The notes below the pieces were generated by a model that was not told the origin of the DNA, searched no databases, and saw nothing but the letters and a program-made list of their open reading frames with translations. The position numbers and the translations under genes are program-made. A stretch of 64,000 nucleotides of DNA from Dehalogenimonas etheniformans (GTDB taxonomy: Bacteria > Chloroflexota > Dehalococcoidia > Dehalococcoidales > Dehalococcoidaceae): assembly GCF_014672715.2 (NCBI RefSeq), contig NZ_CP058566.2, positions 1,860,001 to 1,924,000 on the forward strand, in the 5' to 3' direction. Positions 12,610-59,101 of the stretch are shown one piece after another (the first letter of the stretch is position 1; each line of letters opens with the position of its first letter).

Positions 12610-13200
12610 TTACGAAAGAGGGAACCGGGCGAGTTCGGTGTAAACTGCACCGGTCGGGAATAGAGTACTTTGCATCAAGCTGACCGAACCAACCTGAATG
12701 GTGAGATCAGGATCGACCTTTGTTCTGGTGATTTTAAGGGCAAGCTTTTGTTTTACTTCGGAGGTCACTTCATCTCGCAGCCGAGCCAGGGTCAAATGCG
12801 GAGAGAAGGCGCGGCTCTCCGTGGGAAAACCCAACAGTGACACCCATTTTTCGATCGATTGCTGGAGCATGTTAAGCTTGGGTAAATCACCTGAAAGACC
12901 GCACCAGACCACATTCATCCGCTTCATGCTTGGGAATGCTCCGAGGTTGCTTAATCTGAGCTCAAAGGGCCCGGTTCCGGCAATCGATTTGGCGATGGCA
13001 GATTTAATCTGTTCAATGCGATCCGGGGCGACCCAGCCGAAGAATTTGAGAGTCAGATGGATACCTTCCGGGGCTACCCACTTTATACCCTCCGAAGGCT
13101 GGACCTGCAATTGGCGCTGCAAACTCGATAGTTCGCGTTTTACGCTTTCGGCAAGTTCAATAGCGATAAAAGCCCGAATCGGCGAAACCCGCTCAATCAT
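12610..13200 (-). CDS. thpR: RNA 2',3'-cyclic phosphodiesterase (2H family)
   Basis: A 196-residue protein of the 2H phosphoesterase superfamily. Both catalytic HxTx motifs are present: HLTLKFFG near residue 54 and HLTLARL near residue 135, and the N-terminal RAFIAIEL strand is typical of ThpR/LigT. The enzyme opens 2',3'-cyclic phosphates on RNA, and the family was first described as a tRNA 2'-5' ligase. The ATG at 13200 overlaps the end of the upstream amidohydrolase by eight bases, indicating an operon; the frame stays open far upstream but that part is the shadow of the amidohydrolase gene. Confidence 0.9.
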   Translation of the reverse strand: MIERVSPIRAFIAIELAESVKRELSSLQRQLQVQPSEGIKWVAPEGIHLTLKFFGWVAPDRIEQIKSAIAKSIAGTGPFELRLSNLGAFPSMKRMNVVWCGLSGDLPKLNMLQQSIEKWVSLLGFPTESRAFSPHLTLARLRDEVTSEVKQKLALKITRTKVDPDLTIQVGSVSLMQSTLFPTGAVYTELARFPLS

Positions 13201-14041
13201 GCCCGAGCTCCAACAACGAAGCCGCATTACCCCCGGTGATCTTTGACATATCGGTACCTGCAAGACCTGAGGAAACCAACTCATCGAGCCCGCGACGGGG
13301 TGATAGCAGAGGGAAATCCGAGCCGAAGAGTATCTTGTCCACCCCCGACAATTCGGCAACCCGCTTGTAAACGGGAGGTAGGTAGAGGAACGGGGATGCG
13401 GCACTATCGAACCAAACGTTATAAAAAGCTTTTCTGACCTCCGGCATGAGGGAGTAGAAAGGTAATCCGCCCCCCCAGTGCGCCAGGACCAGTTTCAGGT
13501 CCGGATAACTTTGGATGAACGAGTAAAAACTCGAAGGTGTGGCCTTTCCTTTGCCCGGATAGTGGTGGCCGACTGGTTCATCAACATGGGAAAGCAAGAT
13601 CAATTTATTTGAGACAAGCGATTCGATCATTGGCGACATGATTGTCTGGTCATCGAGATTCAGTCCCTGGACATCGGGCCGGATTTCGCCGACACCTTTT
13701 GCCCCAGCTTGTACGCATCGTTCAATTTCGTTGAGAGCTTTCTGGCTTGCCACGGGTTGGACTGCGATGAAGGGGATTATTCTCTCCGGGTATTTGGTGG
13801 CGGATGCCAGGATATAGTCGTTCGATTCGACACATAACTCGTGTGAAGACCAGCCAATGTTGAGAACTACAGATTTATCAATACCGCATCTGTCCATCTC
13901 CGCGATTAGCTGGTCGGCGGTAGTTAGCTTCGCTTTCGGGTTATTGTACAGCGTGGCGAAACAGGGATCGGCGGCGACATACCGGTCGCGGTTGGCGATG
14001 ATCTTGGGCGAGAAGGCGTGAGTGTGGAAGTCAATGATCAC
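13193..14041 (-). CDS. metal-dependent amidohydrolase (amidohydro_2 family)
   Basis: A TIM-barrel amidohydrolase of about 282 residues. The metal-binding HxH is in IIDFHTHAF at the very start, further metal or active-site ligands appear in LLSHVDEP, VLAHWGGG and FGSDFPLL. Relatives decarboxylate or hydrolyse aromatic or lactone substrates; the substrate is not readable. The GTG at 14041 gives the family-typical start; a TTG at 14095 overlapping the upstream stop (TTGA) would add 18 residues. It is followed by thpR with an eight-base overlap and preceded by an AHSA1-type gene, forming a three-gene unit. Confidence 0.85.
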   Translation of the reverse strand: MIIDFHTHAFSPKIIANRDRYVAADPCFATLYNNPKAKLTTADQLIAEMDRCGIDKSVVLNIGWSSHELCVESNDYILASATKYPERIIPFIAVQPVASQKALNEIERCVQAGAKGVGEIRPDVQGLNLDDQTIMSPMIESLVSNKLILLSHVDEPVGHHYPGKGKATPSSFYSFIQSYPDLKLVLAHWGGGLPFYSLMPEVRKAFYNVWFDSAASPFLYLPPVYKRVAELSGVDKILFGSDFPLLSPRRGLDELVSSGLAGTDMSKITGGNAASLLELGHD

Positions 14042-24880: not shown

Positions 24881-25551
24881 ACCGGACTGCAGGGAAGCAT
24901 AGCCATCATATCGCGCAGCTTGGCTGAGGCATCGCTGATAACCGGCGGACCGTGACCGCCAAAAAGGGAATTGAAATCCAACCTGGCAATTTTCTTCATC
25001 GAATCCATCGCTCGGGGCATATCTATTGCGGTCGGTCGGGAAGGAGTCATCAACCTGTCTCGGGCATGCGTGCGTAGGGCGTCGCCGGTGAAGATGATCT
25101 CTCCAGGTTTCCATAGACAGATACTGCCCGACGTATGTCCAGGGGTATGGACAACCTGGAAGCTACCGACTTGGTCAAATTCATTAAGCAAGATATCAGG
25201 TTTAAAACGGGCAAAACGGCCCAAACCCGGGATCAGCCGGGAGATCCAGCGGAAGGGAAAGGGAAGCTCCGTTCGAGTGGTCATATAGTGTGCCTCGATG
25301 TTGTGGACAGCGATCTTAGCCCCGGTGAGTTCCCTGAGTTCAGAGGCGCTGCCGGCATGGTCGATATCAGTGTGGGTAAGGATAATGTAGCTGATTTTGG
25401 AGACGCCGAGTTTTTTGGCGTAATTGTCTATGCGGCGGGCATTACCCAGCAAACCGGTGTCGATGACAATGGAGGATTCCGGCTCGACGACAAGCCAACA
25501 GTTGCAGCCAATGACGCCTCGAATCCAATGAATGCCAGGTATGACTTCGAT
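24877..25551 (-). CDS. MBL-fold metallo-hydrolase with apparent ATC start
   Basis: A metallo-beta-lactamase fold hydrolase of 224 residues if it starts at ATC 25551. The metal motif THTDIDHAG (HxHxDH-like, first His replaced by the TH-T form), the HTPGHTSGS strand and GGHGPP near the end are all present. The N-terminal strand IHWIRGVIGCNCWLVVEP, essential for the fold, is encoded upstream of the first in-frame TTG (25452), but the frame from the upstream TAA (25567-25569) to that TTG has no ATG, GTG or TTG. ATC at 25551, preceded by AGGA nine bases before, gives the expected start (M)EVIPG. The substrate is unknown. Confidence 0.8.
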   Translation of the reverse strand: MEVIPGIHWIRGVIGCNCWLVVEPESSIVIDTGLLGNARRIDNYAKKLGVSKISYIILTHTDIDHAGSASELRELTGAKIAVHNIEAHYMTTRTELPFPFRWISRLIPGLGRFARFKPDILLNEFDQVGSFQVVHTPGHTSGSICLWKPGEIIFTGDALRTHARDRLMTPSRPTAIDMPRAMDSMKKIARLDFNSLFGGHGPPVISDASAKLRDMMAMLPCSPV

Positions 25552-34755: not shown

Positions 34756-35646
34756 TTGTTAGCAGTAAAAATATCTGAAGTCTCAAAGATCTACGGCGAA
34801 AAGAAGGTCGTGGACGGAGTTTCCTTCGAGGTCAACACCGGGGAGATTTTCGCCCTGATAGGTCCCAACGGCGCCGGTAAAACCACCACCATCCGCATGA
34901 TGATGGATATCATCAAACCGGATGGTGGCGATATCCTGATAATGGGACAGCATCTTGGAGAAGGGTCCAAAAATTGCATCGGTTATCTGCCCGAAGAACG
35001 GGGACTCTATCGCAAACTCCGCATAATGGACACTATCGTCTATATGGCCTCTCTGAAGGGAGCGGCGGTCGAGACCGCGGTTTCTCGTGCAGAGGCTCTT
35101 CTCAAAAAATTCGGTCTTTATGAGCACCGCTACAAGAAGATAGAGGAACTTTCCAAAGGTATGGGGCAACTTATCCAGTTCGTTGTTACTGTGGCTCACG
35201 ATCCCGGGTTGATCATCCTCGATGAACCGTTCGCCGGCCTCGACCCTGTCAACACCCGACTTCTGAAAGACACCATCAAGGACCTTCGAGGGGAAGGCAA
35301 AGCAATAATTTTGTCTACTCACCGCATGAATGAAGTGCAGGAAATGTGCGACCGGTTGTTCATGATTAACAAGGGTCAGCGTGTTCTCTACGGCGCTCTT
35401 AACGACATTCGAAGGCAGTTCCGCTCTAACTCGGTCATCGTCGAATCGGAATCGCCGTTGCCGGCTCTTGCAGGCGTGACCGGGATTGAATCCAAAAATC
35501 ATTCATCGATATTGAAGCTTGGAGATGCGGCAACGCCTCAATCGGTACTTGCTCAACTCGTCGCTGCCCAGGTGCCGGTAGAGCGGTTCGAGGTGGCCTT
35601 GCCTTCATTGGACGATATTTTCGTACAGGTGGTAAAGAAGTCGTGA
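34756..35646 (+). CDS. ABC transporter ATP-binding protein (NatA-like)
   Basis: An ATPase of about 296 residues. Walker A GPNGAGKTTT, the signature ELSKGMGQLIQF (unusually KGMGQ in place of SGGQ) and Walker B LIILDEPFAGLDP are present, with the switch His in STHRMNE. The C-terminal half has the LDDIFVQVVKK ending seen in NatA-type proteins. It is coupled to the permease by a four-base overlap. The preferred start is TTG at 34756, eight bases after AAGG; a TTG at 34723 would add 11 residues. Substrate: sodium, a drug or a peptide. Confidence 0.92.
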   Translation: MLAVKISEVSKIYGEKKVVDGVSFEVNTGEIFALIGPNGAGKTTTIRMMMDIIKPDGGDILIMGQHLGEGSKNCIGYLPEERGLYRKLRIMDTIVYMASLKGAAVETAVSRAEALLKKFGLYEHRYKKIEELSKGMGQLIQFVVTVAHDPGLIILDEPFAGLDPVNTRLLKDTIKDLRGEGKAIILSTHRMNEVQEMCDRLFMINKGQRVLYGALNDIRRQFRSNSVIVESESPLPALAGVTGIESKNHSSILKLGDAATPQSVLAQLVAAQVPVERFEVALPSLDDIFVQVVKKS

Positions 35647-36866
35647 ACAAAACGGCCCTCATCTTTAAACACGAATTCACCACTCTGATCCGACGGACCG
35701 GCTTCATTATCATGACCGTCGCAATACCGCTTATCGGGCTCATCCTTATCCTGGGTGGCCAGATTTTTTCCGGCAACCAGGGCGGTGGCGGGCCGGTCGA
35801 ACAGGTCAAGATCGGATACGTCGACCAGGCTTCGCTCATCACCGGCCATCAACAGGAGGGCAATTTCGATTTTGTCGCTTTTGATTCTGCCGAGGCGGCC
35901 AACCAGGCCTTGATCGGCAAAACCGTGTCCGAATATATCGTAATCCCGCCGGACTACATCAACACCGGCGCTCTGGCCAGATTCACCACCGAACGTCAGT
36001 TGGAAGTGCCGGGCGATCGGCTGTACGCCATTCAGAACTTCATGCTGGACAATCTGCTATCACCCACTGTGGGGGCTGCTGTCATCGACCGCGTCAAGGC
36101 CCCGGCCAACCTTTCAAGCATAATCCTCGATCCCGTCACCGGCTTACCGGCCGAAAATCAGGGAGGCGTGGCGGCTTTCCTGCTGCCTTACCTTTTCAGC
36201 ATTCTCCTGGTGATGTCGATCTTCACGTCCTCGGGCTACCTGTTGCAGGGACTGGCCGAGGAAAAAGAAAACCGCATCATGGAAGTCCTGCTTTCCAGTG
36301 TTTCGGCCAGGCAACTCATAACGGGAAAGGTCCTCGGGTTGGGCGCTGCCGGATTGGCGCAGATGGCGATCTGGCTCTTTTCAGCCCGGTTCCTGGCTAA
36401 CCTGGCTTCGGCTAACTTTTCGGCTATACTGGGTTCGATCGAGCTATCGGCCAGCTTTGTGATCCTTGGCCTGGCTTATTTCATTCTTGGGTATCTGTTG
36501 TTTGCCATACTCCTGGCAGCGATCGGCAGCATTGCTTCGAGCATGCGTGAGAGCCAGCAATTGGCCGCCATTTTCAGCGTCCTGGCGGTCTCACCGCTCT
36601 GGGGCCTCGTTTTCATCATTGAAAATCCTCAACACCCGGTGAGCGTTTTCCTTACCATTTTCCCGTTTACCGCCCCCATCACCACGATGATCCGGGTGGG
36701 TACCGCGGAAGTGCCGTTCTGGCAGATAGGCTTGAGCATGATGGTGATGGCGGTATCCATTTTCGGGTTCCTGCTGCTTTCGGCCAAGGTCTTCAGGACA
36801 TTCCTGTTGATGACCGGTAAAACGCCCAAGATCGGCGAGATCCTGCGTATGCTTAAGGAAGCCTAA
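35643..36866 (+). CDS. ABC-2 type permease (NatB-like)
   Basis: A 407-residue permease with an N-terminal helix (IIMTVAIPLIGLILILGG), a large extracytoplasmic domain of about 140 residues, and five or more C-terminal helices. The EEKENRIMEVLLSSVSARQL coupling motif before the helices is diagnostic for NatB/YhaP. It works with the ATPase encoded just upstream (GTG start overlapping its TGA). Both genes read toward an M16 peptidase on the opposite strand. Confidence 0.92.
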   Translation: MNKTALIFKHEFTTLIRRTGFIIMTVAIPLIGLILILGGQIFSGNQGGGGPVEQVKIGYVDQASLITGHQQEGNFDFVAFDSAEAANQALIGKTVSEYIVIPPDYINTGALARFTTERQLEVPGDRLYAIQNFMLDNLLSPTVGAAVIDRVKAPANLSSIILDPVTGLPAENQGGVAAFLLPYLFSILLVMSIFTSSGYLLQGLAEEKENRIMEVLLSSVSARQLITGKVLGLGAAGLAQMAIWLFSARFLANLASANFSAILGSIELSASFVILGLAYFILGYLLFAILLAAIGSIASSMRESQQLAAIFSVLAVSPLWGLVFIIENPQHPVSVFLTIFPFTAPITTMIRVGTAEVPFWQIGLSMMVMAVSIFGFLLLSAKVFRTFLLMTGKTPKIGEILRMLKEA

Positions 36867-56273: not shown

Positions 56274-57809
56274 TTAGTGCAAGAAATGCCGGACGCCCGT
56301 GAAAACCATGGCGATGCCGTTCTCGTCTGCTGCCTGGATCGAAGCATCATCCCTAATAGAACCGCCGGGCTGGATAATGGCGGCGACACCCGCGGCCGCG
56401 GCTTGCAACACACTGTCGTTGAAGGGGAACATGGCGTCGGAGGCGAGGACGCTGCCCTTCGATTTTTCACCCGCCCGTTTGACCGCGATGTCCACGCTGG
56501 TAACCCGGTTGGGTTGGCCGGCGCCCATGCCCAGCAATGTCCTGTCTTTGACCAGGGCTATGGCGTTGGACTTGATGTGCTTGACCGCCCGGAAGGCGAA
56601 TAACATGTCGGCGATTTGAGCTTCCGTCGGCTCTTTTTTGGTCACCGTCTTAAGCGTTAAAGCCGAATTTGGCATGATGTCGGTCCGTTGCACCAGCAGT
56701 CCGCCTTTGACCCGTCGGTAATCCAACGGCGGCTGGGCTTCGGGCACGGGCAATTTGGCTTTCAGGATACGCAGATCCTTCCTCTTTTTGAGAATCTCGA
56801 GGGCGGCATCTTCGTAATCGGGTGCGATAGAGATCTCGTAGAATGTGCCTCTCATGGCCTCAGCCATTCCGGCGGTGAGCGTATGATTGACGGCCACGAT
56901 ACCGCCGTAAGCAGAAACAGGGTCACCTTCAAAAGCTTTTTTGTAGACCTCGACGAGATCATCGCCGCTGGCAAGGCCGCACGGATTAGTGTGCTTGATT
57001 ATGGCGACCGTAGGATCTGGAAAATCGGTCGCCGTGGACCATGCGGCGTCGGCATCAAGGATGTTATTGAATGAGAGTTCTTTGCCCCAGAACTGCTCCG
57101 CCCAGGTGATACCGGTGTTCTGTCCGGCGCCGACGCGTTGTTCCGCGTAAAAAGCGGCGGGCTGGTGCGGATTCTCGCCGTAGCGCAGGCCGTAGCGTTT
57201 CTTGAGGGCGATTGTCATGTTATCCGGGAAGCCTTCGTTACCTTGCCACAGGTATTGGGCGATGGCGGTATCGTACATTGCGGTGTGCTGGAAGGCTTTT
57301 TGTGCCAGGCGTTTGCGTTCATCGAGTGACAGGCCGGAGCCTTTGAGTTTTTCGATGACCATCGCATAGTCCGCTGGGTCGGTCACAATGATCACGCCCG
57401 GGAAGTTTTTGGCCGAAGCGCGGATCATGGCGGGCCCGCCGATGTCGATGTTCTCCAGGGCGGTTTCGAGGGTAACATTACCCTTTGACACGGTTTGGAC
57501 AAATGGGTAGAGGTTGACCACCACCATGTCTATGGGCGTGATTCCGTTTTGGGCTAGTTGGGTCATGTGGTCTTCCTTGTCCCTCCTGGCCAGGATGCCG
57601 CCGTGAACCATGGGATGGAGGGTCTTAACCCGGCCGTCGAGGATCTCGGGAAAGCCGGTAATATCGGAAATCGAATGGACGGGAACACCGGCTTCAGAGA
57701 GCGACTTTTTGGTGCCGCCGGTCGAAAATATCTCCCAGCCCAGCTTGGTGAGATCAGCGGCGAAGGATTCTAATCCGGTTTTATCGGAGACACTGAGGAT
57801 GGCCCGCAT
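56274..57809 (-). CDS. purH: bifunctional AICAR transformylase/IMP cyclohydrolase
   Basis: A 511-residue PurH. The MGS-type IMP cyclohydrolase domain begins AILSVSDKTGLESFA and includes TGGTKKSL; the AICAR transformylase part has KHTNPCGLA and the SDAMFPFNDSV motif. It performs the last two steps of IMP synthesis. GGAGG five bases before the ATG at 57809 fixes the start. purM lies 92 bases upstream on the same strand. Confidence 0.97.
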   Translation of the reverse strand: MRAILSVSDKTGLESFAADLTKLGWEIFSTGGTKKSLSEAGVPVHSISDITGFPEILDGRVKTLHPMVHGGILARRDKEDHMTQLAQNGITPIDMVVVNLYPFVQTVSKGNVTLETALENIDIGGPAMIRASAKNFPGVIIVTDPADYAMVIEKLKGSGLSLDERKRLAQKAFQHTAMYDTAIAQYLWQGNEGFPDNMTIALKKRYGLRYGENPHQPAAFYAEQRVGAGQNTGITWAEQFWGKELSFNNILDADAAWSTATDFPDPTVAIIKHTNPCGLASGDDLVEVYKKAFEGDPVSAYGGIVAVNHTLTAGMAEAMRGTFYEISIAPDYEDAALEILKKRKDLRILKAKLPVPEAQPPLDYRRVKGGLLVQRTDIMPNSALTLKTVTKKEPTEAQIADMLFAFRAVKHIKSNAIALVKDRTLLGMGAGQPNRVTSVDIAVKRAGEKSKGSVLASDAMFPFNDSVLQAAAAGVAAIIQPGGSIRDDASIQAADENGIAMVFTGVRHFLH

Positions 57810-57901: not shown

Positions 57902-58915
57902 TTATTCGATGATGACGCGGCCTTTGCCGGTATCAGCAACTACTTCGCCGACGATTCTGGCATCGGGCATTGCATTCAACAGCGCAGGGACTTTGGCTTG
58001 ATCGGCAAAAATCACCATCCCGATCCCCATGTTGAAAACCCGGTACATCTCTGCGTCGGCCACATTACCCATTTCCTGGATGAGTTCAAAAATGGGCAGG
58101 ACATCCCAGGAGCCTTTTTTAATGCGTGCTGAAGTGCCCACCGGCAGGGTGCGAGGGATGTTATCGGTGAATCCGCCACCGGTGATGTGCGCCAGGCCTT
58201 TTATCTCGGACAGAACTGGTTTGAGATCTCCGAGATAAGAGCGATGTGGAGCAAGGAGGGCTTCGCCGACGCTTTCGTCCAGGGGAGGATAGCGAATGAC
58301 CATGGCGGACGAACTCTCCCCGAGGACCCTCCGGGCAAGAGAATAGCCGTTGGTATGGAGTCCGGTCGACGGAAGTCCGAGGATGGCGTCGCCGGGGTTT
58401 ATCGATTGTCCGTTCAGGATATTGTCTTTTTCAACGATACCGACGATGAAGCCGGCGAGGTCGTAGTCATTGCCATGATATAATCCGGGCATCTCGGCTG
58501 TTTCGCCGCCGATCAATGCGCATCCCACCTGTTGACACGCCGTGGACAATCCTTTGACAATATCGGCAACAAGGACGGGGTCGAGCTTGCCCATGGCAAT
58601 ATAGTCAAGGAAGAACAGCGGTGTGGCGCCGCAGGTAAGAATGTCGTTGACGCTGTGATTGACAATGTCGATACCAACGGTATCATGTTTGCCCATCGCC
58701 GACGCGATGCGGAGCTTGGTGCCGACGCCATCGCAACTTGAGACTAATACCGGTTTACTATAACCGGTCGGAATCTCGAACATCCCGCCGAAGAATCCCG
58801 GGCCTGCCAGGACGTTTGAGTTGAAGGTCGCTTTTGCAAGCTTTTTGATCTGTTCCTTGGCGATCGCGGCCGAATCGATAGAAACGCCGGCAGCGGCGTA
58901 CGAGTCCTGTCTGAT
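57902..58915 (-). CDS. purM: phosphoribosylformylglycinamidine cyclo-ligase with apparent ATC start
   Basis: AIR synthetase of 337 residues. The N-terminal DSYAAAGVSID, the ATP site SCDGVGTKLRIA, GGETAEMPGLY and the GGGFTDNIPRTLP motif are all intact. The first in-frame ATG (58783) would cut away 44 residues of conserved sequence. No ATG, GTG or TTG lies upstream in this frame; ATC at 58915 stands six bases after a perfect AAGGAG and gives (M)RQDSYAAAGVS, as expected of PurM. The gene leads purM-purH-pncB. Confidence 0.95.
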   Translation of the reverse strand: MRQDSYAAAGVSIDSAAIAKEQIKKLAKATFNSNVLAGPGFFGGMFEIPTGYSKPVLVSSCDGVGTKLRIASAMGKHDTVGIDIVNHSVNDILTCGATPLFFLDYIAMGKLDPVLVADIVKGLSTACQQVGCALIGGETAEMPGLYHGNDYDLAGFIVGIVEKDNILNGQSINPGDAILGLPSTGLHTNGYSLARRVLGESSSAMVIRYPPLDESVGEALLAPHRSYLGDLKPVLSEIKGLAHITGGGFTDNIPRTLPVGTSARIKKGSWDVLPIFELIQEMGNVADAEMYRVFNMGIGMVIFADQAKVPALLNAMPDARIVGEVVADTGKGRVIIE

Positions 58916-59101
58916 GGGATTCTCCTTGGAGTTGATGCAGAAATGATAGCATCTGCTGCTGGTTGACGCAATCGGTAATCCGCGATAACCGCGATATCGA
59001 TTTCTTTTTTGAACTCGGGAACTGGCGGCTTACAATATGAGTGAAGTTGAACCGACGATCAACAAAGTTAATACCAGAATGTCAAGAAAACTTACAGCAA
59101 C

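Follow-up and report, generated by a model that had tools for sequence, protein, structure and literature searches.

The start of purM at an AUC codon is well supported in Dehalogenimonas etheniformans, and weak start codons at the homologous position recur across the order Dehalococcoidales. The gene is probably a second order-wide weak-start gene repressed by initiation factor 3 (IF3), an arrangement that would keep PurM low and link it to the level of the initiation factor.

The purM locus and its start codon

The purM frame is located on the minus strand of the window (the whole stretch of 64,000 nucleotides analysed) and stays open from 59029 as far as its stop at 57902 (Table 1). The minus strand from 58930 to 58907 reads TCC AAG GAG AAT CCC ATC AGA CAG. 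The first ATG, GTG or TTG in the frame is the ATG at 58783, which lies within the conserved protein, 44 codons past the ATC. The initial annotation had reported that no canonical codon precedes the conserved N terminus of PurM and that the ATC at 58915 stands six bases after AAGGAG (58927-58922); both statements are correct in coordinates and wording. Translated from 58915, the protein scores 383 bits against TIGR00878 (cut-off 236), with residues 5-325 aligned to positions 2-329 of the 332 in the profile. The domain is full-length, and its score above the curated cut-off places it in the family.

Table 1. Features of the purM region, in coordinates of the window
Feature	Positions	Strand	Remarks
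purM, phosphoribosylformylglycinamidine cyclo-ligase	57902..58915	-	337 residues including the initiator; TIGR00878
ATC (AUC) start codon of purM	58913..58915	-	no canonical codon in frame before 58783; conserved in relatives
Shine-Dalgarno sequence AAGGAG of purM	58922..58927	-	6 nt before ATC; 8/8 congeners at 6-7 nt
Predicted 21-nt 5' leader of purM	58916..58936	-	promoter geometry and conserved ATCA
Extended -10 element TGCTATCAT	58943..58951	-	hexamer 58948-58943; TGYTATCAT in 8/8 congeners
-35 element TTGCGT	58966..58971	-	17-nt spacer; TTGCG invariant in 8 species
purH, ATG start	56274..57809	-	next downstream on the same strand as purM; TIGR00355, 637 bits

Substitutions among eight species of the genus mark the onset of coding. 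In codons 2-45 of purM, 14 of 44 first, 11 of 44 second and 37 of 44 third positions are variable, and the 36 nt upstream of the ATC display no codon period (5, 7 and 8 of 12 positions variable). The third-position bias is confined to the sequence 3' of the ATC, which indicates that coding begins at this codon. In two of the congeners (L005 and L006) the frame is closed by a TGA 13 codons upstream of the ATC, and the interval contains no canonical start. The start codon itself has the same third base in all eight species of the genus; the third base is fixed in none of the 13 conserved Ile columns and in 22 of the 182 conserved columns of the gene.

Transcription likely starts at the A at 58936, 7 nt below the -10 hexamer, and the predicted leader of about 21 nt would lie behind a conserved promoter predicted from the sequence. 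In the genus of the window purF lies at another site, and purM is the first gene of a separate unit that diverges from dnaJ-hspR-clpB. In many other genomes of the order purF, purM and purH are adjacent (for example, G110:C19, G038:C1 and G021:C20).

Conservation of the weak start in the order

The alignment of purM starts proposed in the initial annotation finds ATC conserved at this column in all eight Dehalogenimonas genomes, with AAGGAG 6-7 nt before it, and in all three genomes of the sister genus, with GAGGTG 5 nt before it, or 11 of 11 genomes of the family. Across Dehalococcoidales, purM starts were typed in 87 genomes relative to the conserved motif YxxAGV: 50 are non-canonical, 36 canonical (ATG, GTG or TTG) and one is unclear. 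The non-canonical codons at the homologous place are ATT, ATC, ATA and, rarely, CTG. In 39 of the 50 genomes the open frame upstream of YxxAGV contains no ATG, GTG or TTG at all; these comprise 24 genomes with ATT, 10 with ATC, three with ATA and two with CTG. Non-canonical starts were found in 23 of the 31 families, spanning dozens of genera and most of the order.

The typing rule is conservative: three genomes (G071, G124 and G130) were scored as canonical on account of a TTG or ATG that lies before or within the Shine-Dalgarno sequence, and these nonetheless carry ATT or ATC at the usual place. In four genomes (G013, G073, G151 and G154) a TAG codon immediately precedes the ATT, which is preceded by (A)GGAGG 7-8 nt upstream; because the frame opens with ATT, this codon must be the start. 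The homology of the start position is confirmed by the presence of ATG at exactly the same column in several relatives (families f16 and f35, and G100, G104, G116 and G129). Outside the family of the window the start is mostly ATT and in some cases ATA, and its third base may be T, C or A. Judging by these codons, the class conserved at this position is AUH rather than ATC as such. Shine-Dalgarno sequences of at least 6 nt accompany 29 of the 39 non-canonical starts against 7 of the 36 canonical ones, in raw counts that ignore kinship.

Other genes and the initiation machinery

The preponderance of weak starts in purM does not extend to purH and purF of the same pathway. A canonical start is available at all 27 purH loci and all 30 purF loci of the order, and among the three pathway genes examined the non-canonical start is specific to purM. 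Among approximately 71 window genes with homologues, purM was the sole gene found without a canonical start in all relatives, and the base rate of weak starts was gauged on 344 kb of genome G000 and homologous stretches, covering 214 genes. The general lineage habit suggested in the initial annotation is not supported by the window genes or by purH and purF. Of the two other window genes said to share the pattern, at most one does, a metallo-hydrolase gene at 25551; the other was not located. The former gene, of the metallo-beta-lactamase fold (25551-24877, minus strand), shares its ATC with G002; the corresponding codon is ATG in G001 and G006. In the window an upstream ATG TTG is separated from the ATC by TAA. 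This may be another case of an AUC start, limited to one lineage, or a start in decay.

Several further weak-start candidates were rejected. G000:2018585 and the window regions 12610-13494 and 35490-36866 proved to be overlapping-frame artefacts, and an ATA at G000:2022111 was dropped as its selD-like frame runs upstream through an in-frame TGA. This gene (L152, G000:C1:2022096-2023109) appears to have the TGA at YSG-U-AAKIGPGDL, which suggests that it encodes a selenocysteine-containing SelD.

The IF3 gene is present and itself has a non-canonical start. At the infC loci compared (L218-L228 and L296-L325), ATA stands behind a Shine-Dalgarno sequence in nearly every Dehalococcoidales genome with a readable start, with the exception of G064, in keeping with its classical autoregulation by IF3; in G008-G010 an in-frame TAG precedes the ATA by three codons. 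The genome encodes an initiator tRNA with the anticodon CAU and normal features, and a tRNA-Ile(GAU) is present.

Probable maintenance of the weak start and alternative explanations

In the PurM tree the non-canonical sequences fall within one supported clade (SH-aLRT 96), where they are mixed with canonical ones. At least six start-codon changes are required, against 23.5 with shuffled labels, and a single clade of non-canonical sequences is rejected (p-AU 2e-6). ATG occurs at the same column inside the non-canonical clade (L021 and family f35), so that selection against AUG cannot be claimed by counting; the change counts on this tree do not separate gains from losses and demonstrate no depletion of AUG. 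Canonical starts in 36 of the 87 typed genomes imply that some lineages can do without the weak codon. The persistence of the weak start in many families, its genus-constant third base and the stronger Shine-Dalgarno sequences of non-canonical genes point to a maintained feature of Dehalococcoidales as the best explanation. A switch from AUG to AUU has been recorded for 1 of 61,358 ancestral AUG starts (PMC5622118).

The foremost alternative is that the AUC or AUU start is real and has no regulatory role: the codon would have drifted, with the Shine-Dalgarno sequence compensating and a low need for PurM tolerating a weak start. The occurrence of ATG, GTG or TTG in several lineages, the stronger Shine-Dalgarno sequences of non-canonical starts and the variable third base outside the family are all consistent with drift. 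Drift accounts less readily for the retention of the weak start by 23 of the 31 families when a single substitution would give AUG, which is generally favoured (PMC5622118), for the invariance of the third base within the genus, and for the restriction of the weak start to purM, to the exclusion of purH and purF. We regard drift as possible, though unlikely.

Far less probable is a start of translation elsewhere, whether at the internal ATG at 58783, at the upstream AUC at 58936 in a leaderless transcript, or by a frameshift from another frame. The codon at 58783 is the first ATG, and that at 58936 is in frame at the likely 5' end of the transcript. However, initiation at 58783 would drop 44 conserved codons with a coding substitution pattern, the stretch from 58936 to 58915 shows no conservation at the protein level and contains the Shine-Dalgarno sequence, and relatives carry an in-frame TAG directly before the ATT. 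A start at a position other than 58915 is thus largely refuted. AUH starts could in principle have full strength in this lineage through a special initiator tRNA or a recoding of initiation, as the occurrence of such starts in both infC and purM, each a conserved gene, might suggest, but the initiator-type tRNA found is an ordinary one and AUH starts are not general, which makes this explanation very improbable. A sequencing error hiding a canonical start, a mutated start or a decaying gene, the first two of them entertained in the initial annotation, are refuted by the same codon in eight congeners and three sister-genus genomes, by homologous codons throughout the order and by the intact PurM domain.

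Proposed mechanism and known systems

The reading we favour is repression of a weak start by IF3. The purM AUC would be read by the ordinary initiator tRNA with a third-base mismatch, and the strong Shine-Dalgarno sequence on a short leader would make initiation possible yet weak. IF3 would destabilise the mismatched initiation complexes and thereby hold PurM output low; a fall of free IF3 relative to ribosomes would let PurM rise, as happens with infC, pcnB and the sigR gene of Streptomyces. The weak start would set PurM below PurF and PurH, which are often encoded side by side with it. Damping of a biosynthetic gene, as the initial annotation had proposed, would be the likeliest role of the AUC.

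The infC genes of E. coli, B. subtilis and Streptomyces have AUU, AUA or AUC starts with IF3 autoregulation. IF3 destabilises initiation complexes at any codon outside the set AUG, GUG and UUG (PMC5472188), and third-base mismatches in initiation are tolerated but disfavoured (PMC10158994). Non-canonical starts repressed by IF3 include ATT or ATC in infC, where the AUU start results in autoregulation of IF3, and GTC in Streptomyces sigR, where the GUC is combined with an extended Shine-Dalgarno sequence (PMC5472188). Like purM, infC has an AUH start (AUA in these same genomes) and a strong Shine-Dalgarno sequence, conserved over large distances; unlike purM, it encodes the discriminating factor, whereas purM is metabolic and the effect on it would be one-way. 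The sigR gene resembles purM in having a non-canonical, taxon-conserved start with an extended Shine-Dalgarno sequence in a gene other than that of IF3. The two differ in the codon (GUC versus AUC), in breadth (one genus versus an order) and in that regulation is experimental for sigR and proposed for purM. The pcnB gene of E. coli has an AUU start that restricts the translation of one enzyme (Binns and Masters 2002, cited in PMC1780047), as proposed for purM; the enzyme and lineage are unrelated, and no order-wide conservation is described for it in the literature searched.

A near-cognate start, a strong Shine-Dalgarno sequence, a conserved codon and an IF3 gene with a non-canonical start of its own are all found for purM. 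Its anatomy fits the IF3-repressed class in every feature readable from sequence, and we infer from it the repression itself, a low dosage of PurM and any benefit.

Significance

Characterised non-canonical start codons in bacteria are very few (PMC5472188). A weak start under IF3 is of a known kind, while the gene, purM, and the order-wide breadth appear new: literature text searches, mostly outside subscription papers, returned no report of a weak start in purM or in Dehalococcoides. Gene finders ignore non-canonical starts, and purM is likely mis-started or truncated in genomes of the order. With its AUH start conserved across the order, purM, a gene of central metabolism, provides a clean natural test of whether IF3 discrimination regulates genes beyond its own, and the natural ATT, ATC, ATA, CTG and ATG variants of purM form a set for comparison. 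More tentatively, purM may, like infC, serve in Dehalococcoidales as a dedicated IF3-sensing gene, with purine supply tracking the ratio of IF3 to ribosomes. If true, an IF3-sensing purM, of which the literature searched held no description, would link the level of an initiation factor to nucleotide synthesis.
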